Origin: Isoetes taiwanensis
Lineage: Eukaryota > Streptophyta > Lycopodiopsida > Isoetales > Isoetaceae
NCBI GenBank assembly: GCA_021234155.1
Contig: JAJEKV010000063.1
Span: forward strand, 2,016,947 to 2,080,946
Length of the DNA: 64,000 nucleotides
Direction of reading: 5' to 3'
A program made the position numbers and the translations under genes. Positions 27,959 to 52,531 of this stretch are shown in pieces; position 1 is the first letter of the stretch, and each line of letters starts with the position of its first letter. Below the pieces are notes generated by a model. That model did no database searches and was not told where the DNA came from. It saw only the letters and a program-made list of their open reading frames with translations.

Positions 27959-28083
27959 GGCACCGTTTGGACCGTCCATCTCACAGATGGACGGCCGAGA
28001 TCAATCTCTACCAACATTTTGTGGCATAATCTCTACACCATTTGAGACATCTACATCATTTGTGGCACAGACTATCACGCCTT

Positions 28084-31100: not shown

Positions 31101-32959
31101 AATGCAAAGTCGATGTTGCAAGGCAAATTTTAATTTTGGATTGAATGCAAACCTTTTGCCATAGCACGGGTTTATCGTCCCCGGGACCTTGGCCATCCGG
31201 GATGTTGTGCGACTCCATTGGAATCCAAGTTCATTTGTCAATTGATCGCCTTAAGATAAATAGTTTCTCCGGTGCTAAACCAGAGTGACACACATGTTAA
31301 GATCAGCTTCCAGCTCGATAATACTTGCTGCAAATTATCAAAGAAATAACTTAGCATAAAGTATAGCTTAAATACAATGAGAACATGGAAGAGCAGTACA
31401 AACTAAACGAAATCTCACTACACAAAATAACTGCAAGAACAATCGGAGCAAACCGGCGCCGGCTAAAGGAGCAAGAATAAAAAGCGGGTTTCGAGATATT
31501 CATCGGAAGACGAGACCGCTCTAATACCCTCTTTCTCTTTCGATCCGAACTGGTGGAACAGCCACCACCAAAGGAAAAAATCGTGGTAAAAAATTTGGAG
31601 GGTTTTTTGGTGTTTTTTCTCTCCATCAACCATTGCACGACACCTACCTCATGTGTGACATTTAAGAAATTAAATGATTAGGCTTATTGCCACCGTTATC
31701 ATTAAATAAAATTAGATATGACACCTTAGAGATCTCCTTTGGAATTGTGCAATTCCGCGCATCAAATACAATACTTGATTTATTACCAAATGCGGAACTA
31801 TCGACACACGAGGAAAATACACCGATAAATACCTTTAAAATAGTTCTCGCCAAAGCTGGCCTCCCCATACGCTATTATCTCGCTTTATTTTCTTTTTTCG
31901 TTCTTTGATAGCTCGGGAAATACTTAAGCCCATTATGGATACAACCACTCCAACTAGCCTATTTAAAATAGCAATTAACATATAGTTCCATCCGACATAG
32001 TGTCTATCTATATTCGTATTGTATGTTTGCTTTGTTTTGCTTGGGCCAATAAATAATAGAAATCACGTCACAATGCCATAATAGCAACATTTTTGCCTTA
32101 AATACTTCCATGGGCAAGGGCAAATGAACAACCCATTCTCTGCGAGAAGTCAAAGCAGTGCACATGAACCGAATCATCGATAAAACTTCGAATATGCTAG
32201 AAAATATGCATCCTCTGCTGGAAAATAGCTTCACGTCGACTTATTCTCTATTTTCAAAGGAGGTTCATCCTCAAACATGAAAGGATGAAGCCTTGAGACA
32301 TGAAGCATAGGCAGATTCAATCACTTCTAACCGATGGTCACAGGTCGGGCGGTCTACATGTCAAGATGGCCTTAAGTCAGCAAGGTTTAGCATGGCCTTA
32401 AGTCGACAAGGTTTGATATAAGTATTTATTCATTCCATTTCGTGTCATAACAGAAGCAAGTGCGTTTGAAAACGTGGAAAGAGCCAACCCGGACTTTGTG
32501 ATTCTTTGTTTCACGGAAATGCCATGGAGCACCGATTTAAATACTCAAGTCCATTAGGCTTCCAATCGCCATTGTACACGGTTTGCAAACAAATTTTAAA
32601 ATAACAACGATATTTTGTGAACAAATTACTATGGAAAAAACGAAAATTACACGGCCGGGCATGAAAGCCACCATTTTCTCGATCGCCTGCAACAATATTA
32701 TAATCCGTGAGGCTGGCCTTACTAGCAATGCATATCCTATACGGCGGGGAAGAGCTTTTTTAGCTGAATTTCCAAGGGAAAATTTGATAGCGGGAAGAAT
32801 GTTGTTTATAAAGAATAGGCGTTGGGACTGAAATGGCAAGCATTAATATAGCCATTCTTCCTTTCAAGGATGCCAATATCTGTATTTTTTACGTCATAAG
32901 ATGAGCGCGACCGAAATCACCAAGCATGTGGTAGATATTTGACGATGAACTAGACATGT

Positions 32960-33985
32960 CACTTGTTTGCACTATGAGAAGGTTCACAGCTGGTGGTTTT
33001 GGCTGGTGGATTTGGTGGGCATACCACATCGATCATATGGATCGCCCGAAAGTATCTGGAAAAACAGGGAAAAAAATTTCAAGTTCCATAAAAGAGATTA
33101 TATATTGAACATTGAGCTTGTTAGAACTGAAAAAACGCATACGTAACGTTACGGATGAAACCCAAATCGTAAACGCACAAATCTATATATGTGTACCATG
33201 CGAAAAACCCAAAACAGAGAACTAATAAAATGAGAAATGCAGAAATTCTTTCTTAGGTAGAAAACCTTTACCTCACATTAGATTTTGCAAAAATCCTGCC
33301 AGGTATTTCAAATATAAAGGATTGTTTCCAATCTCATTATAGGAATAATTCCCTGCGGGGAAGGAGCCTTGATTCTAGAGCAGAAATGAAGGGCACATTA
33401 GATGGATTAGAGCCGCTTAGACATACGCTAATATTGCTTCCTTGAGAACCGACAATTGCTTCATAAACAGAGTAGTCTGCTACTATTCTCCCCGCAGACC
33501 GGACACATTTTGCCAAAACCCCATCGATTTGGAGCTGGAAAGAGGCCGAAAAGATTTGTTATCATAATTGCCATACTAAAAGGATGCCCTCAATAGATGC
33601 CTTCGTTTATCATAGCATTTAGTGTGAAATATCGCAGAAGTTTTTAAATATTTAGGAAGGGATGAATCCTTGAGAGTTGCATTTCGTTCGATGATATTAA
33701 TCCCTCATCGATATCCAAGAAATGCCCTTTTCTTTGTAGCTGCTACTCCCGCCACAATCAAGGCTTGTGAATCCTAAAATCGGCAAAAAAATGTTGAAAA
33801 GAAATCTCGGATCACATATTGAAGATCATTTTAGGATAGCCTAATGCAACAGAGTTGAAACTTTTTAACATATTTAGCTACATTGCAAAGGAAAAAAAGG
33901 AAGACAAAAAGAGACATACCTTCCTGCGACAAAACTAAGAGAAAGAAGGTAGAGAGTGAGGAGGAGGAGTTTGGGATGCCGCCAT
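32960..33985 (-). pseudogene. Malectin-like receptor kinase exons (copy 2)
   Basis: Counterpart of 24,826-25,855. The signal-peptide exon is 33,985-33,920 and the malectin-like exon 33,575-33,272. The signal-peptide exon has lost bases relative to copy 1 (CAGCAACTC is reduced to AAACTC), breaking the frame. Whether this is mutation or consensus error is unclear. Confidence 0.6.
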
Positions 33986-36216
33986 AGCCGAGCTTCAAGA
34001 AATGCTCTGTTTTGCATTATTCAAGAGTCGAAGTTTGTGACCGCCGTAGTGCTTGCTTAACATTAGTTTGATATTCTTCTCGGAATACCATCGCCAAACC
34101 ATATTTGGGACTACTTTGTAAAGGAAAATCCGGCTATTGGGAACAACAAGTAGGCTGCCACATGTGATCCGGGTGCATTTGCACAATTGGGACAGATGCC
34201 GATTCATAGCCAAACTCGTTTCTATCTCCGGATATACCCAACCTGAGATGAATCGATGTGCAAAAGAAGCCCACCGAGGGATTGCTGGTTGCTCAAGATA
34301 TATGCAAAGAAGATATTTAGCTGGAGATCAATCTCTGGAATCGAAAGCCCTGTCCGGAATCTGAAGCCCTGTCTGATTGCATAGCCAGCCAAGCGCCAAA
34401 ACAAGAAAAGAAAAAGAAATCGTGAAAAAAAAATGTGAGATTCTCTCCTATCCTCAATGTGTGACACGTACTCACATGGCAATAATAGGCTTGTTAGAAT
34501 TTTATTAGGAGTGAGCATTGCCACCTCACACAAGACATAAATTTTCTATAATGTCATCTTTATGGGTTATATTGCATCTTTCAATTCGGACCTTTGATTT
34601 GGCGAATATTCTATGTTGGATTGTAAATCAAAGCCTATTAGAATTTTGAAAAGAGAACTCCATTTCAGTGTCAATGGTGCAGATCGGACGTATGGTTGAA
34701 GCCAAAGAAAAAAGCCAAAAAAAAACCCAGCCGTGGCCTGCTGGAATGAATCCTGACAATCAGGAGCGGATAGCACTCTGCATAGTTTCCATTTTCAGTC
34801 TATTTTCGAAACGACGGCTGTTGATAGCAGCATGCAGGCCAATCCATAAAAGCGGCAAATTTCTCATCCCCGGAGCTGCGGCTATGGCGGAAAAGGATCC
34901 CCAATTAGCTGCTTCTACCACTAACAACTGCGATTCTATTCCTTTGCCAGAATCCCCAATTGAAATAATGAGCCACGCGGCTTTCGCAGCTTCCTCGCCA
35001 TTTTAATTTGCCTTGGAGCTATGCATTTTAATACTATGCATGGTTCATGAACGAATCTCAGCGCGCCCAGGAGTCTGGAGTGAATCCTGTGCCAGTCCTA
35101 GCGAGGAATCAAAGCACAGAGGAGATGGATGTGCTCTGCCTGGAGGATTTGAAGCCCAGTCCTTATGGGATTTGAACCCACCATCACCAACCGACAAACC
35201 GAAAGATTCAAGAAATACAAGAGCAATTTCTGAAATATGGAACAAAGAAAATATGCCCTAAGTTGCCTAATGTATGGCTTCACGTCCCTAAATCGGATGA
35301 TTCGGCGGAAAGAACACGGCCCGAACTCCATGCTCGCGCTCCACCACCCCTACTAATGCCGCCCAAATCGACACAAATCGGGTGCAAACCCAGGCCTCTT
35401 TGGATCCCATTCTCTTCCTCCACACCAGAACCCCTCCTTGCTCGCCTGCCCCACTGAAACGCATTGCCGCCCCCGCTCAAAAAAGGAAAGCTCTAAATTT
35501 CCTTCCTCAGACCATTGAGTTCACTTAAACAAACACACCACTGAAATAGAAACTTGCCCCTCAAAACAAAAAAGCAGCTCAAACATGCACAAACATACGA
35601 TTCTCTATACAATACAATACAAGAATCATAGTTTCCACCATTTGAGAATACCTTCCCCAATACCAAGCGAATTGGGTAAGCGTAATGGATGGCTATGCAT
35701 TAATGCTTTCCCATCATAGTTTGCACTATAAAATTAATAATGGCGGACTTTTTAAAGCGGTCTAGATTAAATCCCTTAGTTTGAAGGGCATAGATTAAAT
35801 GCCCCAAAAATTGCATCTTCTATGCAATTTCCCTAAAACAATTGACGGCTCAGATTTCTCCTTCCCCCCTTGATCCAGGGTCCGGAGGAATGGTGCATGC
35901 CCCATGCATGCCCATGCATGCCCCCATGAAGATCCAATGGCTATAAGTTTGCCACCTCACCTTCTTTCAAATAAGCGGACCCGTCACGGATTAAAAGCCC
36001 CAAATCGGGGGATGCTTGGGGTAAAACCCTAAATCTGATGGTCTAGATTAAAAGCCCCAAATCGGGGAGATGCTTGGGGTGTTACGAGGTGGCACCGTTT
36101 GGACCGTCCATCTCCGCGGATGGGACGGCCGAGATCAATCTCTACCAACATTTTGTGGCATAATCTCTACACCATTTGAGACATCTACATCATTTGTGGC
36201 CTGAGACTATCGCCTT

Positions 36217-36241
36217 TATTATTATATATTATATATATAGA
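36217..36241 (-). other. Helitron 5' terminus on minus strand (copy 2)
   Basis: Same terminus as 28,084-28,108: reading leftward from 36,241 gives TCTATATATATAATATATAA, preceded by A. Confidence 0.55.
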
Positions 36242-37479
36242 TTATTAAAAAAAAACCGGTTACAAAAGTGGCATTTTGGAATTAGCTTGTATTAAAAGCA
36301 AAATCGCATTTGTTTAAGCCTGAATAAAATTTGCGCTCTTAGGTACCTTCTTTCAAGCGCCTATGCTTCCCGTGTTGAATTCCTCTGGGAAACGCGCCCT
36401 ACCTACCCCGAGAAAAACTATGGCGGTCGCGTTAACTTGAAGGCTCTAGCTAGCTTTGGAAGCCGTTCGCTATTCTTGAGTTTTTGTAAGCGAGGTGCTT
36501 TTCTCATAATGTATGCATTACCTGCGCAAATGCGAATCAAGACAAATACCTCTGCTTTGTGGCTATAGTCGAAAGATTTTCGCATGATTTCTTCAAAACC
36601 ACAAATGCTGGATCCCTCTTTGACCGACAAAGAAGAACCTCTAAGAAGCCTCCTCCGACAGTGGGAAGGAATAAAGCAAGAAGCAAATTAAGCAATCAAA
36701 GATAGATGGGTCCTCAAAGGGGATGGATTTTTCTGCTGGAGTGCCTTGGGATATCGACTTTCAAGCCCCTTTAGTTGCTACTCCACTAGATGGCGTAAAG
36801 AAGCCCTGAGTAAACATACCTCTTTTTTGAAAAGAATAGCCTTGAGGCATGGTTTGAAAGTCGGAAGCGACCATTTTCTTTGTGCTAGAGTTACCAGGGA
36901 GAGCAATCTTAAAACCCCAAAGATAAAAGAAGCGGAGAAAAGATATTTTGTGGCCCTAGCTTTTTTGCTGTATGACCTCAAGGCATCCACCCGCACCAAA
37001 GTTGGCGAGAGACTCCATTGACACACGCAAATTTGTTGGAGCCTTAGACTTGAGCTATTTCGTGTAAACTTAATTAGGAGGCTTAATCAGGACAATCATA
37101 TCCGGTGATCATGCTCGACACTGTAGCATGATGAACTATGATAGATTTTATGGCAAGGTTCTGGATTTCCTAGGCACTTGCAGAGAGTAGGATACTCTTG
37201 CCGAAAGTGCAGCTGAAGCACTATAATCAGTTTGCAGGAACAACTGTGAGGTGCCGACAATCTCCGCCATCACCGTTGAGCTGCCTGCTGAAGCACGAAG
37301 TGTTGTAACAATAAGCTTCTAAGCTCTAGCCTCTAAGCAAATTCGGTTCTTTCCCTTTTGTTTTACCACATTCAATCGCATGTTTCGTCTTGATCTTAGC
37401 TATTATGCATGTTGAACAATGAAAGGACAATTGGAGAAAGAGATCCCTAACATGCTGGTTTCTATAAAGGAGCTATGGA

Positions 37480-38029: not shown

Positions 38030-39100
38030 CCCTCGTTTTTGCATTTGGGCTGTTTTTATAGGTAGACCCTTTACTTTATTTTTGTCCTTTTGGTATACAA
38101 CTAAGTGTGCATATTTAAAAGTTTCGTCCTCTTAAATAACTTCTAAGAAAGATCAGAGCCAATGTGCTGATGAGCTGATGTCCCAATTTCAAAAATGGTT
38201 GATGTCCATAGCTGCTACTTGCCTTTGCAAAATGGAGCTTTGCTCTCTCAGATAGTCCATGGTTTGTCGTGCACCTTATGAGTTTTGCATACATTTGGCC
38301 TTTTGTTCTCAACTATGACAACAGATGAGCTATTCTGCCTATCAAAGAATCATAAGCTGGTGCAAAATATATAATGGAAGCCATAATAAGTTTATGCAGC
38401 CAATTGGAAAATGATTTCTTTAGTTTTCACCTATTTTTTGCAGACCCTAGCAAATGTTGAGGTCAGCTCGATGAATGCATGATGCATCATGGCTGGAGCT
38501 TGGCAAATTGACTTGCATTGGCAATGCCCTTGCCTCTAAAAACTTAAATCCTAGAGATATGGCAACATGAACATACTAATATATCCTGGCAGCTTTAGTG
38601 GTGCTAGATGTGTTTCATTGCATACCATTTCAAATTTGTTATTGCAGTATCATTAGAGTTTTTTTGAGATCAAATAAGGGCCCTTACTCGATGCCACGTC
38701 AAAAAGCTCGCGGCCAATGGGGAGCCGAGCTTGTACAGAACTTTTTCACCGAGCCTTGGTTTCGCGTTTCCAGGTGTCAACTGCACGTAGCTTCGGTAAT
38801 GTCCGTGCCTCTAGCTTCGGGTGTCAGATTACACACGTGGCAATTATAACCGTTAGCTCCCGCCCTCAATTCCATTTCGGTGTTTTCCACAACGAGTTTT
38901 TGGCGAAGATCGATTGCAGCGCCAAGGGAGCTTGGGTTCACTTTCGGGAAGCTGCCGACTGCGCTAAAGGGAGTTTCGACCCGCAGAAAAACTTCGATCA
39001 AGGTAAAATCGCGTAGCCTTTCCTAGTATTTCGATTCAGCTCCACATTCTGATTTGAATTACGTGACTAGATGGCTATAAGCTCTATCCGCGATCGGAAA
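38030..39100. other. No confident gene
   Basis: Short frames on both strands. The stretch 38,690-39,020 is CpG-rich and resembles a promoter or 5' leader, but no TATA box or start codon can be defended. Confidence 0.3.
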
Positions 39101-39384
39101 TGAGTTTGAAAGCCCGTGGTGTCGTAGGGGGCTTTGTTACACTCCAACCTGCAAATGCGAGGTGAATGGCGAGTCAAAAGATGCGAGGAGAAATGATGTT
39201 TACGCACATTGGAAGGCTTTGGTGGTCGGTTCGATCGGGCAAAGAGATATTTGTACAAGTAAGGCATGTATACACTCCAGCGGATATGGCAAAAGAAAAA
39301 ATAAAGCAAGCGGCGAACTTTCCCACGGTTAGAAGCAAATTGTGAGTATGTAATTCTATGCAATCCATATTCAAATTAGTTGAG

Positions 39385-39726
39385 TTACTTATCCGGTTCC
39401 TTCCCATTCTCTCGGGTTTGTGTATATCGATGTGGAGAACAACGTCTCTTCACACTTTCGATAGCGGTGTTTTCCATTGCTTTCACCAAGATATGGGCTG
39501 CTTGTTGTTCGAAGGTAGCACACGATGCATTTTCGAGAAAGGGGTATATGGTTACGGAGGTATGAATACTCTCCACGAAGATCCAAGCTAAGCGAGCTTC
39601 CATTGCCCGACTGTCCAGATTTATCTGCGAGGCCTCGGATGCCACTTCTATCTTATTAGCGCGGAGTAAGTTGTCGCGAGGAAATGTTCCGCGGCATTGA
39701 AGGAGAAGGGAGGAGTCTGCGGGCAT
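39385..39726 (-). CDS. Histone-fold ORF, H2B-like
   Basis: 113-codon minus-strand ORF. A stretch INLDSRAMEARLAWIF matches the start of H2B helix 2 (a ...S-K-A-M... box). About 30 residues later ATFEQQAAHILVKAMENTAI resembles the H2B loop-2/helix-3/C-terminal-helix pattern (E-x-Q-x-A-x-x-L-V-x-x-x-E-x-x-A). Identity is low, so an H3-like assignment is the alternative. It follows an H4-like ORF on the same strand with a gap of about 40 bp, so they may be one transcript or a doublet. If real, it would package DNA as a divergent nucleosome subunit. Confidence 0.45.
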   Translation of the reverse strand: MPADSSLLLQCRGTFPRDNLLRANKIEVASEASQINLDSRAMEARLAWIFVESIHTSVTIYPFLENASCATFEQQAAHILVKAMENTAIESVKRRCSPHRYTQTRENGKEPDK

Positions 39727-39766
39727 GTGAAGATAAATTTAGGAATTGATCTGTTCATTTCCATAT

Positions 39767-40183
39767 TCAAAGCCGCCGACAATGTAAAGAAGACCTTGAA
39801 GATGTTTCGGTTTTAACGGTCGGCCGGATTGTTTTTTTAGATAGTGTATTTCTTGAAGGTTGGAGTGCTTTCGACTTCGCGATGGAGCTGAATGTCTTGA
39901 ATGCGGGATAAGTCGAGACGGTTCGGTTCAGATATTGCATTAGGAAGCAAACTACGTATGTCACTTTTAAGTATAGGAGATGGCGAAATGTAAGTGAAGA
40001 AGAAAGAAATGCGTCACGGATTCTGTCGAACAAGATGACAATGATGGCACTCATTCCGTTGTCATAGACTTGAACATTCATAAGGATAATCAATTTGTTC
40101 AAAAGTCGAGGCGGAGGCGAGTGGTCTCTATTCGATGTTAAAGCCAATGGAGTTGAGGCGGACTTAAACTTCTTCCATTTCAT
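39767..40183 (-). CDS. Histone-fold ORF, H4-like
   Basis: 138-codon minus-strand ORF. VYDNGMSAIIVILFDRIRDA aligns without gaps with H4 helix 2 (I-Y-E-E-x6-I-F-L-E-N-V-I-R-D-A), and RDA is kept. In a different frame at about 39,890-39,820 the strand encodes RKHSNLQEIHYLKKQSGRPL, matching H4 loop 2/helix 3 (R-K-T-x5-V-x-Y-A-L-K-R-Q-G-R-T-L), followed by GLLYIVGGFE, similar to the H4 tail. About 35 extra residues, an intron or sequence error separate the two parts. The distant but ordered match makes H4-like the best call; the N-terminal tail and helix 1 are unclear. Confidence 0.55.
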   Translation of the reverse strand: MKWKKFKSASTPLALTSNRDHSPPPRLLNKLIILMNVQVYDNGMSAIIVILFDRIRDAFLSSSLTFRHLLYLKVTYVVCFLMQYLNRTVSTYPAFKTFSSIAKSKALQPSRNTLSKKTIRPTVKTETSSRSSLHCRRL

Positions 40184-40398
40184 GATAGATGGCGAGGAAG
40201 GTGGAAAGCCTTGAGAGAAGAATGCTATAAATTGGGGTCATGCATGCCCCCAAAGTCATATCGTATATGAATCTATCTAATATAAATATAAGTGATTGTT
40301 TAGCTTGTAGATCTATTGTATATTAATTGCAAACATTTGCTTTCATTGGGATATAAGACTTAAAGTAGCCATGTTATGTACAACTCGATTGTGGATGT

Positions 40399-40770
40399 GT
40401 TTTCACCGTACTTACGGTCGCGAAATTGTGGCTCTCATAAAATATGGAAGGGCCATTTTCACCGTAGCCCACGGTCTTGAAAATAATGCATAGCATAAAA
40501 AAGAAAGGGGTATATTATGCGAAGTAGCCCGCGGTGGGAGTTATACATACAATAAGATATTGAAGTGTTGTTTTCGCTGCGTAGCCCGCGATGCGAAAAT
40601 GTACCCTGAATAAAAAATGGAATGGGTATTTTCGCACCATAGCCCGCGGTGCGAAATTGTGAATAGAATAACTTATCGAAGTCTTGTTTTCGCACCCGTA
40701 GCCGCGGTCGCGAATTTGTCATATAGCATAAATTAAGGAAGTGTTATTTTTCGCATCGTTGCCGCGTTCT
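40399..40770 (+). repeat. Hairpin tandem array A1, ~58-bp period, 7 units
   Basis: Units begin near 40,399, 40,456, 40,518, 40,571, 40,629, 40,687 and 40,748. Each has a hairpin of type TTTCGCACC(G/A)TAGCCC followed by GCGGTGCGAAA, then an A/T-rich spacer with GAA(G)TGTT or GGGTATT. It lies about 200 bp upstream of the H4-like ORF. Confidence 0.85.
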
Positions 40771-40821
40771 TAGTCTCTATTGCAAATCAAAGCGCTACAA
40801 AAAGCTCACATTCTAAGTGTC

Positions 40822-42330
40822 ATAAATCGGTTTATTTGCTCCGCGAGAATGGCAAATAGCGGGTCGGATAAGGCATGGGGAATTTGTTTTAGCACATGGT
40901 ATGACAAAATAGTGGAGAAAGAAGCGGGATTTTAAAATCCGGAAACATCGAAGAGTTCGAGGAGGAGCTAGAGGGCGGTGGATGCAACCAGCGTGTATAA
41001 TAATTTTTACTGGCGTAGACATTATGGCGAGTGTAGCGAGGTTTCTTGATGCATATGGCGGCATCCTTCATAGCTTCATGGCTGGAGCTGGTCACGGCGT
41101 GAAACCATGTCCTGTGGTTGGTTTGCCTTCACTAAGCATCAAGCTTTTCTTAAGATGTTTCGAAACGATCATGACCCGAATAAGAAGGTTCTTGAAGAAA
41201 CTACCGCGAAGCTGTATGCGGGCAAGAGGGAAGGAAAGTTTTTGGCCTAGATATCATGTTCGGCACATACATGATTTACACTAAGCCAAAGCAAAGATGC
41301 GGTTCTTCTTCAAGTGCAGTCATTTGAAAGCAGAGCGCCCGCCTCACCGATGAGGAGGCCGATAGATCACGAGGAAGAAGCTTCGTCTTGGAAAATGAGG
41401 AGATCGAGGTTGTGGAACAAGAGGTCTCAGAAAAAAGTTATCTACTTGGGGGGCTATCAGAAGCATATCCCATCCATGTAGGTGGGAAACCATACTTGTT
41501 CTTTTGGGACATATCTCTGAAGTGGCAAGGGTTGAGAGAAGGCGAGATATTGGGCGGATATATGCCCATGTTGTAGGCACAGGAGGACTTATAGACTTTG
41601 AGGCTGATGTCCCCGGACAAATGATGGAGGCATGTGACTTATGATGGATCCTCAATACCTCGGAGGATGCATTTGAAATTGTCATGCAACAATTTGAAGG
41701 GGGTATGAAGCGGTGAAAGATGTCAAATTTGAAGCTGCTAGCTCTTCAAAACCGCTTACGAATTCATAGAACGTGGTTTGTCGAAGTCCGCTTTCAAAAT
41801 AACAAACCATTTGTTGTCGAGCGGGACAAAAGAGAGGTATTTATCTGGTTTCATTTTCTATTTCTTCTTGAATCGATGTTTCTTTTATGCGGGGAGTTAT
41901 TTATTGATGACTTACATTGCAAGGCATCGAAGAGTCACCCTAGGTAGGGGCCTTGATGTGCACATTATATGGGCTACCTTCACAAGGGGAAATTATTGTG
42001 TTTCACAATAAATATAGTCCATCGAGTATGAGGGAGGTCCTCAAGCTTAAGGCTCTGTCATTATCGGGCAAACCCGTGCCCCTAGCCTCAAACTATGATC
42101 AAGTGGTAGCGATAGATAGGGCTATCGCAATGTATGTCTTCGGGGCTTCAAAATGTACTTTGTCCTTGCAAATAAAAGCGACTCTAGGCTTGGGTGGAAG
42201 CGGACAAAGGAAACAACTAGCGCTTGTCACATTGCCTGAAGGACCACGACATATTGTATCATTAGATGCAATTGGGGCTGGAGTAAAAAGAAGAGGACTT
42301 AGAAGATTTTGATTCGGGTACTCTGAGGCC
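40822..42330 (+). CDS. Degenerate ORF module 1, unknown product
   Basis: Successive plus-strand frames look like one broken protein: MANSGSDKAWGICFSTWYDK (ATG at 40,859), then MFRNDHDPNKKVLEETTAKL (41,155), VEQEVSEKSYLLGGLSEAYP (41,411), GTGGLIDFEADVPGQMMEAC (41,577), and a 119-codon frame at 41,953-42,312 with PSQGEIIVFHNKYSPSSMRE. Hairpin arrays flank the module on both sides (A1, A2). I do not recognise any domain. Confidence 0.35.
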
Positions 42331-42540
42331 CGATGCCAAAAAAAAGGAAATGTACTTAAAAAAACTTATGTATGAATATAATGTCTTTTCTATAAATTGT
42401 CTTTTCTATAATGTATCAATTGTTTTCATATGACGAAATTGCTTTTGTATGAATGTTCATTTATGATATTCATTAATTGTTAGACTTCAATGTGAGCAAT
42501 AAATCCTTGTTAGATGTATATGTTAGGTATTCTTTAATGG

Positions 42541-43280
42541 TGGCTCTGTCGCGAAAGCGGGATGTCGGCGATTTTAGTGCAGGCGATTTACGCCTGCCGA
42601 GTAGCTCTGATCGCGAAAAGCAGTGATCGGCAATTTTTGGACTACCCTATGGGTAAAAGCATGTTAGGGTGTACCACTTTTGGAACCTGCAAAAGTACAT
42701 ACACTAGGTACTTCAGAACTGGGTACTTTCTCATTTTTCTTTTCATTAAAACTAATACAAAAATCCAAAATAAAAGTCAAGGACATGGTAATATTCAAAG
42801 TTAAGATAAAGATAATGCTATTGGAGACCAATATATATATAAAAAGTTCTAAAACATACCTTATATTGAGATATTATACAGGTACCCAGTACCCAGTCCT
42901 GGCTACCTTTTTAGGTACCTTTTTAGTCACTAAATAATACTTTTTAAGGGACACCCTAACATGCTTTTACCCCTATTTCGCACCGTGGCTACGGTGCGAA
43001 AACATGATGTCGGCAGTTTTTGGGTGCCGATTTCACCGCCGGCTCACGGTCGAAAGCAATTGTCTGCCGTTTTGGACTGCCCTATTTCGCACCGTGGCTA
43101 CGGTGCGAAAACAGGATGTCGGCAGTTTTTGGACTGCACGATTTCGCATCGTGGCTACTGGTCGAAAAACAGTATCTGCGATTTTGGACTGCCCTATTTC
43201 GCCTACCGTCTTACGGTCGCAAAGATGGCTATGTCGGCGATTTTATTTTGCCGATTTATACCGTGGCTACGAGAACATTT
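42541..43280 (+). repeat. Hairpin tandem array A2, ~55-bp period, interrupted by a MITE
   Basis: Units begin near 42,541, 42,588, 42,976, 43,031, 43,085, 43,142, 43,197 and 43,255. Two units are perfect palindromes with 11-bp arms TTTCGCACCGT / ACGGTGCGAAA around GGCT (42,976-43,001 and 43,085-43,110). The spacer is GATGTCGGCAGTTTTTGGAC plus TGCCCTA. The array is split between units 2 and 3 by the inserted MITE. Confidence 0.88.
42651..42972 (+). mobile_element. MITE, 322 bp, perfect 22-bp inverted ends
   Basis: The left end (42,651-42,672) begins GGGTAAAAGCATG; the right end (42,951-42,972) is its exact reverse complement. CTAT stands immediately before (42,647-42,650) and after (42,973-42,976), giving a 4-bp target duplication. 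The uninterrupted array unit shows the empty site (TGCCCTATTTCGC). The interior is A/T-rich with no ORF. A 4-bp duplication of CTAT is not the TA, TWA or 8-bp type of mariner, Harbinger or hAT; a Sola-like element is one option. Confidence 0.88.
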
Positions 43281-43392
43281 TTCGGTGTAGGGGTTTATGG
43301 GATCGGGGCGGGACAATATTGCTTAATTGAATTTCTTCTCCTTGCTAAAATCCGCTCATGTCCATGGAAGGCTAGCTCTGAAATCCCACAAA

Positions 43393-44185
43393 ATGAAACT
43401 TGACCCATAGCTTGAGAATGTTGATGAGGTCATTACTAGCGTAGAGAGACTTCTATTCAATCCACGAGAGGGAGGCGGTTATTCCCATCACAAGCCCGGT
43501 GAGATGGGCGTAGAGGAGGTTGTCCCTTCTGAAGACCGGGCAAACACTTGGAAATGTCGTCCACACTATTAGTAATAGTGTGGGCCGAATATTCGAAAAC
43601 CAGCCGTGCTTCCTAGTCGGGTCACCTTCTTTGGTGGTAAGGTTGTTGGGGAAGGAGTTTTCGTGGCCTTGCTATGCGCCACAATATTCGGTTCGGATGG
43701 CGTATTGTGGTAGCGGTGGAATGCGACTACGGATCAACGGCCCGACTGCCGTTCCCCACCACAGGAGGCGGAGACATTGGAGGAAGCCCGTCGGGTCATC
43801 ACGTCGTGTGGCCCGAGGTTGATGTCATCCATGTCGGACCGGAGTCGCGGCCATTCAGTTCTTGTGTAATGAGCTGGATTGCGTGTTGAAACCACCGGGG
43901 GTCTACGCGGCAGTGCTTTGGCGGTTGACCCGGGGCTATGGTGCGGCTCATGAATCGAGCTATCTCCTCGTCTCAGGGCGTTGGAACCACTATTGCATTC
44001 CCAAAGCGTTTGGCGGTGGTGGGGGAGGAAGAAGCTGCGGACTATGGAAGTGCGGCATGACCCGCATCGGCTGGTCCGGCATGATCGGCGGGGATCGGGC
44101 GGGCGGCAAAGATCGGCATCGGCTGGTCCGGCAAGATCAGCCGGATCAGCCGCCCGGCAAGATCATCAGGTGGACGGCATGTTGA
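43393..44185 (+). CDS. Histone-fold ORF(s): H2A-like with possible H2B-like part upstream
   Basis: Frame 2 from 43,853 encodes IQFLCNELDCVLK and GVYAAVLWRL, matching H2A helix 1 (L-Q-F-x5-I-x-x-x-L-K) and helix 2 (V-Y-L-A-A-V-L-E-Y-L). After a frameshift near 43,971, TTIAFPKRLAVVGEEEA matches H2A loop 2/helix 3 (R-I-I-P-R-H-I-Q-L-A-I-R-N-D-E-E-L). Upstream, in frame 1 (43,393-43,868, several stops), ETLEEARRVITSCGPRL at about 43,771 resembles the H2B C-terminal region. That order would be H2B-H2A, but the H2B part is weak. Stops and shifts could be sequence errors. Confidence 0.5.
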
Positions 44186-44296
44186 TCCGGGAACCCTAGT
44201 TCGAGTGGAAAAGGTTCTAGGAAGCCCCCGGAAAGCTGAAATCGGTAGAAGAAATCCAAGCCGACAAAGCCTCTAGGCTTGTTCCTAGTCTCTTGA

Positions 44297-44781
44297 GACA
44301 AATTTGAGAGAGATGCGAGGGCAAGGAGGCCGATAAGCTTGGTAATAAAGCGGAAGCCTAAGGAAGGGGAGCCTATTGTTAGATATGGTGGCCACGAGAA
44401 GATGAAGGGTGCTCCTCCGGCACTCGGGGCTTTGAGGGAGATCCGAATGTCTTGGCGGTGCACGCACCGGTCTACGATTCCCAAGCTTGCCTTCGCTAGA
44501 ATGGTCGAGTTTGAGATGCAGGAAATTATTGAGAGGAGGAAGGAAGCAAGAAGCAAGAGGAGGGGACAGAGCACGGACTTCGTCCGATGGTGGAGGAGGA
44601 GGTGAATAGAATCAGGCGAGGCCTTGGACATCTTGCAAAAAGCGTGAGAGGCTCATCTAATTAGCCTCTTTGAGGAAAGTGTCCTTTGTTGTGCACCCGA
44701 AGGGCGTGTTCTTGTCTTGAGGCCAACGATTATGCTTTAGCTAGATACTTAGTGGATGCCTCCCTTAGCATCCTTTTGTAA
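44297..44781 (+). CDS. Histone H3-like ORF, divergent
   Basis: Frame 2 from 44,297 encodes a basic stretch (RDARARRPISLVIKRKPKEG), then LGALREIR and TIPKLAFARMVEFEMQEI, matching H3 V-A-L-R-E-I-R and L-I-R-K-L-P-F-Q-R-L-V-R-E-I-A-Q-D. After an insertion of about 25 residues come ALDILQKA, a TGA (44,643-44,645) where H3 has the Cys of Q-E-A-C-E-A, EAHLISLFEE and VLCCA, like A-Y-L-V-G-L-F-E-D-T-N-L-C-A. A shift near 44,727 leads to DYALARYLVD, like D-I-Q-L-A-R-R-I-R-G. Motif order and spacing are those of an H3 fold. There are two in-frame stops and no clear ATG. It could be a viral-type, centromeric-type or element-borne H3. Confidence 0.62.
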
Positions 44782-44893
44782 CACTTTTGTTTCTTAATAT
44801 ATGAGTGTTTTAGTATTTATCGTCATGAGTGTTTTATATTTATGTAATTATTTGCAATTCTATTTATTTGCGGCCGGTGCATTTATATACTAG

Positions 44894-45100
44894 TGTTGAC
44901 CGTAGCCACGGTGCGAAAATGACTATTCCATATTACGTGGGAAGGTCTATTTAGCAGGTAATACCTATCTTAAAATGACTATTCCACATTCTTTGGGAAA
45001 GTCTATTTCGCACCAAATTAATGCAGTGCGAAAATAGTGGTTCCAAAGTTTTTTTAGAGAGCAATTTCATGCAAGAAGTGACTACGGATCGAAAGCGAAC
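44894..45100 (+). repeat. Hairpin tandem array A3, three units
   Basis: Hairpin GACCGTAGCC plus ACGGTGCGAAAA (44,899), TTTCGCACC...GCAGTGCGAAAA (45,006) and a decayed third unit (45,076), with spacer ATGACTATTCCA(C/T)ATT. Follows the H3-like ORF by about 110 bp. Confidence 0.75.
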
Positions 45101-45237
45101 TATTCCACACATTGCGAAGAGAATCTTTGAACGAATTTAGAATCTACGTAAGGAAAATGGCCAAGAGCTTTCCAAATTGAAAATGTGCGGTAAATAGGCC
45201 GGATCACATGTATCACTTATGGTTACATACTTATAAC

Positions 45238-45990
45238 TCATATAAGAGGCATAGCATGTACATAGAACTCATATAAGAGGCATAGCATACATGAATGAAG
45301 AAGCTTATTAGCGATCGGGATCATCATGAAAAGGTAGTTGGTGATGCGATTAATCTCATAGGCATGCGCTCTGGAACCCTCAAAGGTGGATAATAACACG
45401 ATAAAACCCTCAGGAAGAGCGATTTGCCCCTCTGCTACTCCTTCCAACCCGGGGATCAAGGGGATACCCCTCACGAGAACATCTATGAAGATCATTATAT
45501 GTCATAGTGCAAGTAATGGAGTCCATATCTTGGGACGAGGAGGCCGAGAGACATAGCAAATGGGGCATATACGCATTGAGTGGAACCCTACTTATATCGA
45601 ACAAAATTATTGACATGCCTTTGTAGCGGCATTATTGGTTATACATCGAGCATAATGTACAAAATACACATGTATATAATATGCATTATATAAGCGTATA
45701 TACATTGAGTATTGAGTTAGGGGGACTCTTCCGAGTCATTGTCACGAGCACCCGGTGATCTTTTCTATCATGTACATTTGATGCTCTCTATTCCATATTA
45801 GATGGATGATAACATCGAAGGGATCGGGATAATAGCGAGGATTGAAGCGGCGGTGGTCATCGATCTTCCATGGGTATTTCTCGCTCGCGACCTTTGCTTG
45901 AAATTTTAAGTGATTCATCTTGCGGTAATGGAATCACGTTCGGGACGAGAATGAGACCACATGGCTAGGCGGAGGCCAATATTGCTGCAC
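45238..45990 (-). CDS. Unassigned minus-strand ORFs
   Basis: Two protein-like minus-strand frames. 45,495-45,238 contains VLVRGIPLIPGLEGVAEGQI and ALPEGFIVLLSTFEGSR. About 45,925-45,730 contains KIDDHRRFNPRYYPDPFDVI and IHLIWNREHQMYM. No domain recognised. They lie between hairpin array A3 and unassigned DNA and may be further genes of the same inserted unit. Confidence 0.3.
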
Positions 45991-46021
45991 TTTCGGCAAT
46001 TTGATGTATATTTATACCCAG

Positions 46022-46117
46022 CAAAATTATTGATGGTATATACCCGGAAAATTATTATTGGTATATACATAGAAATTATTGATGGTATATACATACCAAA
46101 ATTATTATCATATACAT
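46022..46117 (+). repeat. Short tandem repeat ATTATTGATGGTATATAC
   Basis: About four degenerate units of (A)AAATTATTGATGGTATATAC with small variations. Confidence 0.7.
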
Positions 46118-46199
46118 ACTTGTATGGTTTTCGTATGCTTCGTGAGCTACAATATCTTATATTATAATGTTATTGTGTAAGTGTTGGACCCGACCCTAA

Positions 46200-47240
46200 T
46201 TTGGCGGTTGATTTGATGAAATCAATGGAAGAGATGATGCCACGTAAGATTCTTTAAAATAACATGGTTTTTGCTAGGGTTAGCGAGGCGGCGATTACCG
46301 GGGAAGTCAGGCATGCACCTTGATGGGCGTTTGAGGTTTTGATCTTTGCGGACTTCCTTTGATGTTCCCTTTAGTGCGAAAGTAGTCTTGGCGGTAGAGA
46401 TGTGCGAGTTTGAATACATTCCGGTCCATGCCTCACCCTCACGGCTTGGCCATCATATCGAACCGAACTTCGGATGGTTGGTATCGTGGCTACGATATCG
46501 CGGCGGCGGCGGAATTCCGCCTTCAAGGTAAGTGGATTTTGCCATTTTTTTGCTCTTCTTCTTGCTCTATGCGGTTTGATAGTCGGTTGCTCGGAGGCCA
46601 GTCTCTTGCCGATTTGCTTTCCTAAGGGGCTATGGAGGCGGCGAGAGGCTATGGCACTTGATCCGTTTAGGGAGCGAAAAGGAAGAAATTTGTATAGAAC
46701 TCCGTCTGGAGCATCATCTCCTGAGATCACCATGGGCAAACCCCCGCATCACGGAAACCTCTGTTATCATATCTGCGAGGAAGGAGAGGGCTTACAATAT
46801 TAACATACCACAGTTTGCAATGATTCGAGCAATAATACCACGGTTATCGTGCCACGGTAATATTAACATACCCGGTTATCGTATTAAGAGCTCTTTCAAA
46901 GGCGTACACGAAGGCCGAGGGAAGCCCGTCAAAACACTCAATGGATCGACCTTCTTTAGTTTTGGTATGCCACTTATCGTATCAGCGTCTATGATGTGGC
47001 AAAATAATTCTTCTTTTATTCCCTTGATGTCGTGGAGCAAAAGCGAAGCATACTCTTTGGATGTCTGCGGTCGAGGCGAGAACTTTTTGATTTTGTGTTG
47101 TCGATTCATTCGGCAATATTTCACAAAGCTTGATTTCGAACATGATTTGCCTCTTGCTATGATCTACCCAGATTCAAAGCCTTTGCCCAAGGATGGCTAA
47201 AAATGCGGTTCATAGCTTTGTCGGAGTTGAGTTCTTGAGG
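46200..47240. other. Overlapping open frames on both strands, unassigned
   Basis: Plus frame 46,658-47,200 (180 codons) and minus frames 46,371-46,739 and 46,876-47,124 overlap. Neither strand shows a recognised domain. The plus frame has protein-like pieces (FKGVHEGRGKPVKTLNGST), as does the minus frame (ADTISGIPKLKKVDPLSV). I cannot decide the coding strand. The local repeat AATATTAACATACC occurs near 46,797 and 46,859. Confidence 0.25.
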
Positions 47241-49811
47241 AGGATTTTTCGTTGGCGGGTAATTGCTACATGTAATTATTTTTACTATGAATTGTGCTTT
47301 AAAGCTGTAGTTGTTTTGATCTTAGCTAGCTTATAATATAGAGATCCACTCCACGAACATGTGCTTTTAGAGCTGGGTCTCTATCTACGTCGACTTATAG
47401 TTAGATATTGCCCTTAGAATTGAGTGCGATTGAAATAGGACATGGCGAGTTAGTTTGCGGATCATTATGTGTTTTCATTACGTCTAAAAGCGAGAATATA
47501 AAGATTTTGTCTTTAAGCTTTTAGGAATTCGGCTTGTGTCCAACGACCATGTACAAATGCACAAAAGGGATCGCCATTTCGTCAATTCTCTATTCCAAAT
47601 TGTTTTAAGCTTGGTGGGACAAAACTTGGTTAGAAACATTTGCATTGGTTGCTATTTTGATTGAATTTCTTTGGTATATGATTGTGAATTTTGCGGAGTC
47701 TTCAAGCGGCCATATGTTGACCTTCCATCGAGAATGTGCATGGCGTGAGACATGTTTTGTGATGAATACCATCACATCAAGCTAAAGATATGAGGTTATG
47801 TCTCGGCGTCCTCCGGAGATATATCGAAAATGTTTATTGTAATTCAACAAAGAATCTGTTGTTTTCAACAAAGGATATGTTTATTTGCTTTGGATTTGAT
47901 AGGGATTGAAATGTTTTTTTTGCTGCTAGAATAGTTGGGGCAGACATAGTCTTATTTCTTGCATGGTAGTCGAGGAGACCCAAGGTGTACAAGAATAAAA
48001 TCCTATTTGACTACATGTGTGCTACACGCAAAAGACCATTTCGTCCATGTCAAGAATCATATGAGGGATGCCTTTCGGTGATATTCAAGCAGGTAAGATA
48101 GCATGCAAAGTTTGAGATGATGCACGTAGACTAAATGTTCATTTTCTAACATTAAAGCACATCAGGCTTTGTCAGCATTTTAACATATTTAGCTTCATCG
48201 GATAAGGAGTTTCGGCCACACTTACAAATATTTACCTTCTACAATAGCAACATGACACAAATGTTTAGATGTCCCTAGTACATGTCAAATTCTGCAATGG
48301 ATTGCCCAATGTGACAGGGCATGTATAAAGAAACATAATACAAAGATTTACATTAACCCAAATGTGCCTTGCAGTGTCAATTTGTTGTATCATGTATAAA
48401 GATGCGCTATATTTGTCTAGATCCTTAAGCAGATTAGGTCTTTCTAAAGAACCTGTAAGCATATATCAGCATTGCCCTGTGCCAGAAGTGTAATTTATAT
48501 TTTTTCAAATAATCCTCTTATGGAGTATGCTGATCTATAAGAAAGACTCTAAGTTCATGTAACAAAGCTAGCATGACATGGAATATTGTGCAAAGACAAT
48601 GTCAAATGTAATTAAAATGTAATTACTGCATATATAAAATATACAGTAGTTGTTTCAAAAAATCATCTTTGCATATACAATAGTCATTTCAAAGAACTTG
48701 ATAAACCCAATAAACAAAGCTCAAAGGGCCCATCGGCTATAAAAAAAAATATGCAAACAGATAATTAATTAAGCTAGGCAAAAAAATGGCCGTTGAAATA
48801 GCTCAAAAAAGAAGTTGGGATACAAATTAAAGACAACATAAAATACGCTCCCACAAATAATTATATGGCCAACAAGTTTCCAACATTTATGGTTACCAAA
48901 TTACAATTATATGGCAGGCTTTGGGTAAATTTGTAAAATGCTCCAGTGATGTTTGGAGACAAAGGCTGTCATAGATTAATGGGATGCCCGGACTTTGTTT
49001 ACTTTGTGCACTTTTTGAGGAATGATTTTATATTTTGAAAAGACTTTGGTGTTTGTTCCTTTATATACTTACATAACTCTAATGCCATGTTCGTTTCCAA
49101 CAACTACAACTTTATACTTTAATAACTGTATTGCCATGTCCTTTTCTACAACTATGCGCCATGTCATTTTTCAACAACTACAATTTTATACTTAAATGAT
49201 TGTATTGTCATGTCCTTTTTTAACAACAACTACAAGGGTTATACGAAACGAAAGGGGTATGGTAAAATGGCGTGTGACGTGGATAAAAGGCCCTTTTTAA
49301 AGAACTTTCTCTTAAAATTCTCCCCTACAACGAAGATGGAAGACAATAAGGAACACACAACTTAGGTATCGAAAGATCTTGGCATTGTTATCAACCCTAG
49401 GATAAGACATAATATATCAATTAACGTCATGCTTTTTTGTTTCTGAGGGCATCGAGGAAAAATGTATCAATTAGCATCATGCTTTTGCTTCTGAGGCACC
49501 TACAAAAATGATCGCGGGGCGATGTGCTTTCGAACACATTGCTCATTTGGAGCAATCAACCAGATGATTTATATGGTTCAATGACGTTATTCGATGTGAA
49601 CTTGAATGAATGAGACATCACCCTCCTACAATTGAAGGTATTTCAAGCTATACTTTGCCAACATTTTAATGAACGAATCCAACAACATATTCTTGGCACC
49701 CGTTCATTTTTTATCCTTTGTACAGAAATTACGAGAAAAGAGTACAAATATTAAATTGATACTGTGTAATTTTCTCATTGCAGCTAGAACTTTCATAGGC
49801 TTCCAAATTAT
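47241..49811. other. A/T-rich DNA, probably Helitron body
   Basis: No confident gene. A minus-strand exon-like piece at about 48,455-48,355 follows CTTACAG and reads GSLERPNLLKDLDKY; it may be a captured exon. CAG/CTG words look more normal here, in contrast to the flanks. The stretch leads into the Helitron 3' end at 49,812-49,839; the matching 5' end was not found. Confidence 0.4.
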
Positions 49812-49839
49812 GCCCAGCAACGCTGGGCACCATTACTAG
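49812..49839 (+). other. Helitron 3' terminus
   Basis: Hairpin GCCCAGC-AAC-GCTGGGC (49,812-49,828), then ACCATTA and CTAG, followed by T (49,840). Same stem and spacing as 18,333-18,360, so same family. The element body lies to the left. Confidence 0.78.
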
Positions 49840-50089
49840 TGTAAATATAATGTACGTATATAGCATATATACCTGATTTCTCTTTAAATAGGCATCTATG
49901 CCTTGTCTTTGTCTGCTTCTTGTTTGCATGCTCCTTGCCTCCCTGTCCGCTTCTTGTTGCTCTTTGCCTGCCTGTCTGCTCCACTAGTTTCTTGCAAATG
50001 GTAACTTTACAAGAACATCCTCGCTGGGCTGATCCGGAATACCTGCAAGCGTGCGGTAGAGTTAATACATGCACTTTTGATGATTTTTA

Positions 50090-50540
50090 ACAACTTTTTG
50101 GGAGCATCGATGGCGTCGCGGTCCAACCACGAGCTTGCAAGGCCCCTGATCAACCGTTATCGTCGCTATACTCGTCATCTCCCTCCCTTTGGAGGAGATC
50201 AATTCGAGTCAAGCAAGGTTCCTCTAAGTGCTTTGGGACTTCTTGAACCCCCTCGGATTTAGAAGATAGGCTAGAGCGGTTGAAGGACATGCTTTTCCAT
50301 GGTTTCATGGCCTACTCTACGGATCGATTATGTGCCTCGGTCATTCCTACTAATGAGAAGAATAGGATTTATATCCTCATTGAACTTTCGACTTCCATTA
50401 CAAATCTTTTGTGGATATTGGTAAGCTCTATTAGTTCCCTTGACTTCAACATCCTGTGGTTCTTGTCTAGATTCCCCACACGGGATACAATTCCTTGGGA
50501 TACCGTGACCTATGGCTACATAGCACCTGACACATAATAC
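50090..50540 (+). CDS. Unassigned ORF before hairpin array A4
   Basis: ATG at 50,110 starts MASRSNHELARPLINRYRRY, then PPFGGDQFESSKVPLSALGL to a stop at 50,262. The neighbouring frame continues DLEDRLERLKDMLFHGFMAY and SVIPTNEKNRIYILIELSTS to 50,537. The join suggests one gene with a frameshift near 50,255. No domain recognised. The array A4 follows about 220 bp downstream. Confidence 0.35.
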
Positions 50541-50756
50541 ATTACATATCACGGTGAAGATACTCCAACTGGATTTGGTATAAAGATTTTCATAGAAATT
50601 AAGTATATAAGCAAGTGATTTCCGTGTAATTAAATGCTTGACCTCATATTATCATGTATTATGTTGGCAATCTTACACTTTTAGTGTAATTGAATGGTTT
50701 CTTCTACCATTTTCCTTGTATTTTCTCATGTGAATGTTTTATTTGTGGTCATATTA

Positions 50757-50850
50757 GGGACCGTGGCCCGCGATCTTGAAATCGCCTCACTTAAAAAATT
50801 ATTGAAGGGCCTATTTCGCTTGCAGTAGCTCACGATATTAGTACTTCAGC
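50757..50850 (+). repeat. Hairpin tandem array A4, two units
   Basis: GGACCGTGGCCCGCGATCTTG (first 20 bases meant) at about 50,758 and a decayed unit at about 50,815, with spacer AAATTATTGAAGGGCCTATT, the same spacer as array A5. Confidence 0.65.
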
Positions 50851-50984
50851 GGTATTCACAGCTCTTTGTGGTATTATACTTCAACGATATTAGTATTATA
50901 CTTCAACATTATTGGGTCGTAGCTATAAATTCTTTCACCTTGCTTTCACTTCCCACCTTTGTTCCATGTTTTCACATTGCTTTC

Positions 50985-51365
50985 ACTTCTCGTGTTCTCA
51001 CCTTGCTTTCGCCGCACCTTGTGTTAAAGGTGTTCTTTGCTAATTGATCTTGATCCTTGCTTCTTGCTCCTTCATCTTCGTGCTACTTCATGCTACTTGG
51101 TCTTGTTCCTTGCTCTTGATCTTGCTACTTGATCTTGTTCCTTGCTTCCTTGTTCCATGATCTTCCTTGTTCCTTGCTACTTCATCTACCTGGTTCTTGC
51201 TATTTGGTCTTCCTTAATCCTTGATCTTCTTGCTCCTTGATCTTCCTTGTTCCTTGCTTCTTCCTACTTGATCTTGATCCTTGTTCCTTGCTACTTGGTC
51301 CTCTTCCTTGCTTCTTGCTCCTTGTTCCTTGCTCTGCTCCTTGTTCCTTGCTTGCTTGTGCAAAT
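50985..51365 (+). repeat. CTTG(C/A)TCCTTG degenerate minisatellite
   Basis: About 350 bp made of CTTGTTCCTTGC, CTTGATCTTG and CTTGCTACTTG words. Minus-strand frames across it give low-complexity K/E/R/S/Q peptides. No gene inferred. Confidence 0.8.
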
Positions 51366-52050
51366 GATTGGACCCAATCCTCCCTGGGCTACTCCAGAAG
51401 GACTGCAAGCATGCCCCATGCATTCTGTGCGGCCTGGAATGGATGAGCTATGGGACCATTTCTTAGAGTGGAGGTTGCGCCACAGTCCCACCAAGGAGCT
51501 TACAATGGAGTTGATCAACTTCATTACAGGCGATTTGATTGTGGTCATGAGCCTTGAGGGAAATTAATCCATCGAGATGTTATAGGAGACTTGGAATGGG
51601 GAATGCTTGAACCCCCTCCTTATCTGGCCGAGATGCTCACGACAATTGAGGCCTCTTCTTCGTCTTTGGATATTTAGCACACTCACGGATGCATACATAT
51701 CGAGTTCATTCATGAAATTTGTAAAGGGACACATGTATGGCCTTATTAGGGTGTACTACAAGCGTGTACAGCGGTTTTGTGGAGTTGGGTCCGCTCTTCT
51801 TCCGTGAGTATCATCATCACGGAATTACTTTTTCTAATGACTAGGTACCCCATATGGTGGGAAGAATCGAAATTTTGGGATGGCGTGAGCTCTTGATTCC
51901 TAACCGGATGCATGGGTTACACCTCATGGGAAGGGGAAGGGAAGGGGAAGGGGAAGGGGTTAGGAACCTAGGGGAGGCGTTACTAGGGACATCTTTGCCG
52001 TGGTCTCTAGTAACCTTTGCTATCTATCATAAATATTTCATATGATACTG
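51361..52050 (+). CDS. Unassigned ORF before hairpin array A5
   Basis: Protein-like frames in succession: QMIGPNPPWATPEGLQACPM and GMDELWDHFLEWRLRHSPTK (to 51,567), WGMLEPPPYLAEMLTTIEAS (51,599) and VELGPLFFREYHHHGITF (51,783). Frames shift between blocks. No family recognised. It occupies the module between arrays A4 and A5. Confidence 0.3.
51929..51960 (+). repeat. (GGGAA)n microsatellite
   Basis: Five to six GGGAA/GGGGAA units. Confidence 0.85.
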
Positions 52051-52132
52051 GTGATAATATGTTCTATAAATATTCTCTAATATGTTAATATGTTCTCTAA
52101 TATGTTAATATTCTCTAATTCTTGGCCCATAT

Positions 52133-52435
52133 TTACCCGTAGCCCGCGATTAAATTATTTCAGTACAAATTATTGAAGGGCCTATTTGCACCGTATGCGC
52201 CCGCGAAAATCGGCAGTTACAAATTATTGAAGGGCCTATTTGCATGCGGTAGCCCGCGGTGCGAAATCACATTCGATTACAAAATTATTCAGGGCCTATT
52301 GGCCGTAGCCGCGGTGCGAAAATCACTCGATTACAAATTATTGAAGGGCCTATTTCTTGGTGGCTGCGGTTAAATCGATGGATCGGTTTGAATTCGGGCC
52401 CATATTTTCGCACCGTGGCCCACGATGCCAATACA
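52133..52435 (+). repeat. Hairpin tandem array A5, ~54-bp period, 6 units
   Basis: Units near 52,133, 52,188, 52,240, 52,296, 52,350 and 52,405. Hairpins of type GCACCGTAGCCCGCGGTGC with spacer TTACAAATTATTGAAGGGCC. Confidence 0.83.
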
Positions 52436-52531
52436 TCATCAATTTACTTACAACCACGACATTTGCTGCGCGAGCACTATCGGTGATAAATAAACCAACT
52501 CTTTACACGGTAGAGGCGTTATCGGGAGCTC

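Follow-up and report, generated by a model that had tools for sequence, protein, structure and literature searches.

A decayed, strongly divergent histone H3 in a repeated inverted-repeat element of the Isoetes taiwanensis genome

Hosts inscribe the silencing of mobile DNA on their histones, and virus-borne histones are known from marseilleviruses and medusaviruses and, in the form of an H4, from a bracovirus. A preliminary description of a 64,000-nucleotide stretch of the Isoetes taiwanensis genome (the whole of which is called the window here) placed four divergent core histones in one small region, and attributed them to an endogenised large DNA virus or to an unclassified mobile element that packages its own DNA. 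Which of these histones are present, and what carries them?

Histone content of the window

With host H3 as the query, a single-frame match containing two in-frame stops was recovered at 44387-44737 of the plus strand (E 2.4e-6, 37.7 bits), whereas the top scores were 27.7 bits in 400 dinucleotide shuffles of the window, 28.1 bits with 1000 shuffled H3 proteins and 27.3 bits in 341 kb of reversed sequence. LARYLVD, the final H3 motif, sits in a different frame from the rest. The relic and the other segments that had been proposed as histones are:

44387-44757, plus strand: decayed, strongly divergent histone H3 (core at 44387-44737; last motif at 44737-44757, in another frame)
39829-40024, minus strand: claimed H4-like pieces, at chance level
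39601-39612, minus strand: claimed H2B-like SRAM box, at chance level
43853-44033, plus strand: claimed H2A-like segment, at chance level

Of the 60 PDB sequences shown as matches, all are named H3 or H3 variant except one, a histone domain-containing protein, and the relic was not found by any of the H4, H2A and H2B queries. It is thus an H3 rather than another histone. All ten peptide strings quoted in the preliminary description are present close to the positions given there. For the other three histones, the top tblastn scores over the whole window were 17.3 bits (H4), 20.0 bits (H2A) and 18.5 bits (H2B), the shuffle medians being 18.1, 18.9 and 18.9 bits, with query sequences entered by hand. 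Frame-tolerant search, which had been proposed as a check, upholds H3, with a score of 91 against a mean of 45.9 (s.d. 5.2) and a maximum of 66 in 60 shuffles, but not H4, H2A or H2B, whose maxima in the claimed region were 40, 35 and 45 as against shuffle means of 43.1, 43.2 and 44.2. Likewise, those portions that were read of a related copy of the surrounding element (C1034) gave best scores of 18.1 bits for H4 and 18.5 bits for H2B, with no H2A among the matches listed. H4, H2A and H2B are therefore rejected as histones of the window, their scores being no higher than those of shuffles. Since only H3 stands and the other three were not confirmed, the histone content of the window appears to be one histone, the H3 relic, rather than a set of four.

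The inverted-repeat element and its copies

The relic lies in a large repeated element, of which the following parts were delineated in a search of the 1.658-Gb genome and by comparison of copies:

38651-55586, plus strand: the whole element in a decayed copy, bounded by terminal inverted repeats and placed by its inverted ends and repeat boundaries
38651-38682, plus strand: left terminal inverted repeat of 32 bases, 31 of them identical to the inverted right end
55555-55586, minus strand: right terminal inverted repeat, an inverted match to the left end
46171-49841, no strand: about 3.7 kb present in the window copy and missing from the C1034 copy
42651-42970, no strand: about 320 bases without a match in the other copies listed by the genome search

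In the genome search, those long rows that extend to the left end start near 38651, and the C1034 copy, read without the 2.9-kb stretch 20138501-20141399, aligns from 38651, shares the right end and matches at 90% over 54786-55586. Terminal inverted repeats are common to both ends of the window and C1034 copies. Positions 43700-45000 recur nearly in full in at least 38 other copies, at 81-89% identity, 40 of 285 first-look candidates having been scored. As neither the window copy nor the C1034 copy has a target-site duplication longer than one base, we describe the element as transposon-like, without a superfamily. No transposase was recognised in the ORFs scanned, the C1034 copy being scanned outside that 2.9-kb stretch. 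Neither an Rfam nor a tRNA scan gave a hit in the window.

Among 20 copies read, 17 match H3 at E <= 1e-3, a result that refutes chance resemblance, and three (L058, L068 and L073) have no H3 match. The whole H3 frame is broken in 18 and open in two, L065 and L066, which match H3 at E 2e-20 with 37-41% identity. At 65.5 and 64.9 bits, the predicted products of L065 and L066 match the core histone profile of Pfam above its curated cut-off of 26.4. The Pfam check suggested earlier thus succeeds with the open copies, at about 65 bits, but not in the window: with its stops read as X the relic reaches 22.2 bits (E 1.7e-4), under the cut-off, 10 separate ORFs gave no match, and none of the 47 ORFs of the claimed region has a Histone match at E <= 1. 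Because two of the 20 other copies retain an open frame, the broken frames of the window probably reflect, as far as can be told, decay of this copy rather than sequencing error. Two points of the preliminary description hold: this H3 is too divergent for an ordinary host histone, and its location in a repeated element with inverted ends agrees with an unclassified mobile element.

The H3 of the element has about 23 extra residues, situated between helices 1 and 2. In L066 the open frame has 174 codons and no ARTKQTARKS-like tail, and its first Met directly precedes the core. The pN/pS ratio is 0.71 over 210 pairs of 21 sequences, which is not far from neutral, and ranges from 0.44 to 0.92 in ten pairs of better copies, seven of them below 0.6. 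Compared by sequence features, this H3 resembles CENH3 in its divergence, changed tail and longer region after helix 1, but differs in being element-borne and repeated.

Gypsy retrotransposons with an H3 core

A second element of the same genome is a Ty3/Gypsy chromovirus, with gag to chromodomain between LTRs, whose first ORF has at its end an H3 core with 84-90% identity to host H3. Its H3-fusion ORF is followed by ORF-B, ORF-C and then gag-pol, with Ty3 capsid, protease, RT, RNase H, integrase and chromodomain, and it has a primer-binding site, a polypurine tract and 5-bp target duplications. The L036/L037 repeat, considered as LTRs, proved to be two LINE copies. Some Ty3/Gypsy chromoviruses are known to carry an additional ORF upstream of gag; the present element is like them in gag-pol order, chromodomain, LTRs and an initiator-Met-type primer site, but differs in the conserved H3 core at the end of its extra ORF, and in a second extra ORF without a known relative except the protein P0121.

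The dN/dS of the Gypsy H3 core is about 0.03 (0.03-0.06 where dS exceeds 0.15), below the values for the gag-pol, ORF-B and N-terminal extension of the same elements; the copies were picked because they match the Pfam histone model, a choice that itself lowers dN. The median silent-site divergence of the cores, which are under strong selection, is about 0.8. In place of the H3 tail there is a long extension. We read 42 distinct places from the 150 top-scoring Pfam Histone matches, and these comprise 9 host H3 genes and 33 transposon H3 cores. A search of 5.8 billion proteins with the fusion protein gave 3963 matches; the 120 listed cover 23-39% of it, as would be expected of the H3 core alone, and the N-terminal extension had no relative among 1830 candidates. 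ORF-B found one relative, P0121, at 40% identity (7997 candidates scored), while its profile retrieved nothing from PDB and no relative from IMG/VR; a fold prediction of P0121 alone was unusable (pLDDT 34.6).

Origin and possible role of the element-borne H3

The H3 relic beyond chance, the repeat family, the inverted ends and the open copies L065 and L066 together point to an H3 borne by the element. We consider it fairly likely that an inverted-repeat element of about 13 kb, presumably of the DNA-transposon type, with 32-bp terminal inverted repeats, captured an H3 gene long ago, that this H3 then diverged while still protein-coding, acquiring a new tail and about 23 extra residues, and that most copies read later broke, with decay of the window copy.

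The chief alternative for this element, possible but clearly less probable, is passive capture, by which a non-autonomous Pack-type inverted-repeat element would carry a piece of H3 that was never functional for it. Pack-type transposons (Pack-MULE, Pack-CACTA) have inverted ends, a host-derived gene inside and many copies, and the window's element is like them in all three respects; it differs in the wide distance of its H3 from the host gene, in having copies that are still open, and in its target duplication of at most one base in both copies compared. The points that favour passive capture also count against capture followed by coding divergence: a transposase was not recognised, 18 of the 20 copies read are broken and two open, pN/pS over all pairs is 0.71, and the first Met adjoins the core. 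The target duplication of no more than one base and the three copies that give no H3 match likewise weigh against capture with coding divergence. Against passive capture, an H3 of 37-41% identity still retains its core motifs together with a long insertion that keeps the frame, which despite the drift suggests a long coding history, and pN/pS falls below 0.6 in seven of the ten better-copy pairs. Such a history could also predate capture, in a host gene.

An endogenised large DNA virus carrying four core histones of its own is very improbable and largely refuted. The H3 is divergent, the element is long, and a mobile or viral genome with its own histone recalls the virus-borne cases; but it has a single H3 and no doublet, H4, H2A and H2B are at shuffle level, and the many dispersed copies have short inverted ends. 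Among 65 of the window's 82 ORFs (>=95 codons), the general Pfam library gave one sub-threshold match (E 0.009) and no recognisable virus gene, and neither the full core histones or doublets nor the capsid and polymerase genes of a nucleocytovirus were found. Packaging by the element of its own DNA is not supported either. Just as improbable is a decayed ordinary host H3 gene, a processed pseudogene or a chance resemblance located here: the relic scores 35.0 bits with host H3 and at most 31.2 bits with Gypsy cores, but its frame belongs to a repeat that occurs in at least 38 further copies, which refutes a lone pseudogene, and the open copies match H3 far better than the relic does, yet share only 37-41% identity with host H3. 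Least probable of all, and rejected, is an eroded fragment of the Gypsy element, which is common in the genome, but whose other ORFs have no match in the window at E <= 0.01, whose H3 cores fit the relic worse than host H3 does, and which shares no profile similarity, and no protein besides H3, with the inverted-repeat element in eight comparisons of their ORFs, the latter having inverted ends and no LTRs.

If the H3 was indeed captured and diverged while coding, its product might, as a tentative proposal, pair with host H4, since no H4 was found in the element, and enter nucleosomes over the element, altering its chromatin or opposing silencing. An H3 without the usual tail would deny the host the sites used by plants to silence mobile DNA; alternatively, it may mark the chromatin of the element for the element's own enzymes. 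The Gypsy elements could represent a better-preserved case of the same trick, with the core strictly kept and the tail replaced. One Gypsy lineage, L020, retains an ARKS-like motif, which makes it less likely that silencing sites were lost completely. It is conceivable, if still doubtful, that two unrelated classes of mobile elements each captured H3, with the tail-replaced histone building silencing-resistant or self-addressed chromatin, and that the Gypsy H3 could also be an address for the element's own chromodomain integrase.

An element with its own H3 under strong selection (median silent-site divergence about 0.8) could bypass host silencing directly. If so, transposon escape from chromatin silencing, an old question, would become testable with a single protein, and element-borne H3 would supply histone variants that evolve apart from the host gene family. 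Counts of histone genes in plant genomes call for caution, given that 33 of the 42 places read are transposon H3 cores.

Histone matches in the window

The preliminary description proposed a candidate set of four divergent core histones (H3, H4, H2A and H2B) at window positions 39385-44781. All ten peptide strings quoted for them are found in the sequence; however, only H3 beats chance controls, whereas H4, H2A and H2B score at or near shuffle level, both in shuffle controls and under frame-tolerant scoring. Host H3 matches 44387-44737 on the plus strand with 37.7 bits (E 2.4e-6), against top scores of 27.7 in the dinucleotide-shuffled window (n=400), 28.1 with shuffled H3 proteins (n=1000) and 27.3 in 341 kb of reversed sequence. 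Frame-tolerant scoring of the window for H3 gives 91, whereas 60 shuffles reach at most 66. A Pfam scan of the window's separate ORFs found no histone, and the H3 relic with stops replaced by X gave a sub-threshold Pfam Histone score (22.2 bits; cut-off 26.4). Among its best 60 of 194 PDB matches, all are named as H3 or an H3 variant with one exception, named only histone domain-containing protein. The window's features are:

38651-55586: inverted-repeat, DNA-transposon-like element
44387-44757, plus strand: decayed H3 (relic) in this element
21089-37401: tandem duplication of ~8.2 kb (21089-29257 and 29253-37401), 94.3% identical; ORFs scanned gave no Pfam match
59972-62808, minus strand: LINE remnant, related (about 65-91% in pieces) to the LINE copies of three other genomic pieces (L035, L036, L037), of which one sits inside a Gypsy H3 element
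3560-4275: local tandem repeat, unit ~225 bases
9690-10210: local tandem repeat, unit ~118 bases

A mobile, divergent H3

We searched the genome (1,658,258,908 bases, 1110 contigs; the published Isoetes taiwanensis assembly is given as 1658.30 Mb in 204 scaffolds and 909 contigs; Wickell et al. 2021, PMC8566536) with window 43700-45000, scoring 40 of 285 first-look candidates. This stretch is a repeat, its 42 matches comprising the window itself, 38 other nearly full-length copies at 81-89% and a remainder. The stretch left of 43700 is also common to the copies, and long rows reaching the left end start at ~38651. The first 32 bases of the element recur in inverse at 55555-55586 (31/32 identical). 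A related copy on another contig (C1034), delimited by inverted ends, spans 20129148-20142209, about 13.1 kb (read except 20138501-20141399); in it the equivalent of window 46170 is directly joined to that of 49842, and the window's copy therefore carries ~3.7 kb extra. Neither of these two copies has a target-site duplication longer than 1 base. In the inverted-repeat element, the piece L079 has two plus-strand ORFs (1500-1955 and 3007-3513) that are mutually related (hhalign probability 99.5), with no Pfam match at E <= 0.5.

Twenty of the 38 copies were read across window 44290-44800, and 17 of them match H3 at E <= 1e-3, the exceptions being L058, L068 and L073. The H3 frame is fully open in L066 and L065 (E about 2e-20; 41% and 37% identity to H3; Pfam Histone 64.9 and 65.5 bits, respectively). 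The protein of these open copies retains the helix motifs (ALREIR, PLIPKLAFARMVR, ALDILQE, EAHLISLFEDS, RVTV, DYALAR), with partial deviation in L065; its tail differs, and it is ~23 residues longer than H3 after helix 1, going by the usual H3 helix positions. In L066 the open frame has 174 codons with the first Met directly ahead of the core, so the region preceding it may undergo splicing or go untranslated. Across 210 pairs (21 sequences) pN/pS is 0.71; in the ten pairs of five better copies it ranges from 0.44 to 0.92, lying below 0.6 in seven. What the window preserves is therefore a decayed copy of an H3 that is mobile and has diverged strongly, and that the element may have used. That H3 simply hitchhikes in this element is a serious rival explanation.

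A Gypsy retrotransposon with a constrained H3 core

A Pfam Histone search of the genome gave 8705 first-look candidates, of which 150 were scored, all over the cut-off. Among these we read 42 distinct places: nine host H3 genes (L001-L008, L021) and 33 others that we picked from the list (L009-L020, L022, L023 and L038-L057, minus L040, a duplicate of L022). The pieces L009-L020 and L022-L057 (L021 excluded) belong to Ty3/Gypsy chromovirus retrotransposons. Their H3-fusion ORF carries an H3 core under strong constraint, and Pfam recognises in the element Ty3 capsid, protease, RT, RNase H, integrase and chromodomain. In six copies read more widely, the order, where intact, is H3-fusion ORF, ORF-B, ORF-C, gag and pol with chromodomain, with an LTR on each side in those copies for which the two could be located. 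A LINE lies within one of these six. The frame preceding the core is long in some copies (up to 485 codons) and broken in others (down to 111). A long repeat, taken as LTRs, occurs in 4/7 pairs of pieces, and a partial one in a fifth. Three measured copies span 13.13-13.24 kb, two of them with 5-bp duplications (AAAGT and GCCAC), and the LTR ends are TGTGACG..CGTCACA. L026 has TGGTATCAGAGC downstream of its 5' LTR, the plant initiator-Met site. As side observations, in L044 (1760-3546) gag shortly follows the H3-fusion ORF, apparently without ORF-B; L033 has an additional H3 match (7443-7616) close to a Gypsy copy; and the sole protein found related to ORF-B is P0121 (471 aa, on a 2953-base contig), 40% identical across 99% of the stretch.

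All 33 copies have one kind of core, 84-90% identical to host H3, with 58/88 positions identical to the host's throughout; S86, S87, E105 and T107 are altered in 33/33 (T107A in every copy), and six copies combine H87 with L90, the plant H3.3 pattern. Silent sites are unsaturated in 365/528 core pairs (median dS 0.80, dN 0.026), with a median dN/dS of 0.033 (362 pairs), and saturated in 297/297 element-host pairs. At dS 0.5-1, dN/dS is 0.035 for the core (31 sequences, three of them host), 0.066 for gag-pol, 0.117 for ORF-B and 0.186 for the N-terminal extension; at dS <0.15 the core gives 0.125 (9 pairs). Choosing copies by histone score pulls dN of the core downward, a choice that did not apply to the other parts. 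Hitchhiking is a less serious rival here, given the strong constraint on the core.

Two H3-carrying elements in one genome

In their main texts, the genome papers of Isoetes taiwanensis (PMC8566536) and Isoetes sinensis (PMC10541799) do not contain the word "histone". Open-licence literature listings name no mobile element with its own H3, which is weak evidence of absence, as coverage is of open-licence papers only. One genome holds two element types with H3, sharing no other protein in the comparisons made. The chromatin logic that we consider likeliest is that the element H3 would act as a partner of host H4, and its tail would not allow the usual marking by the host.
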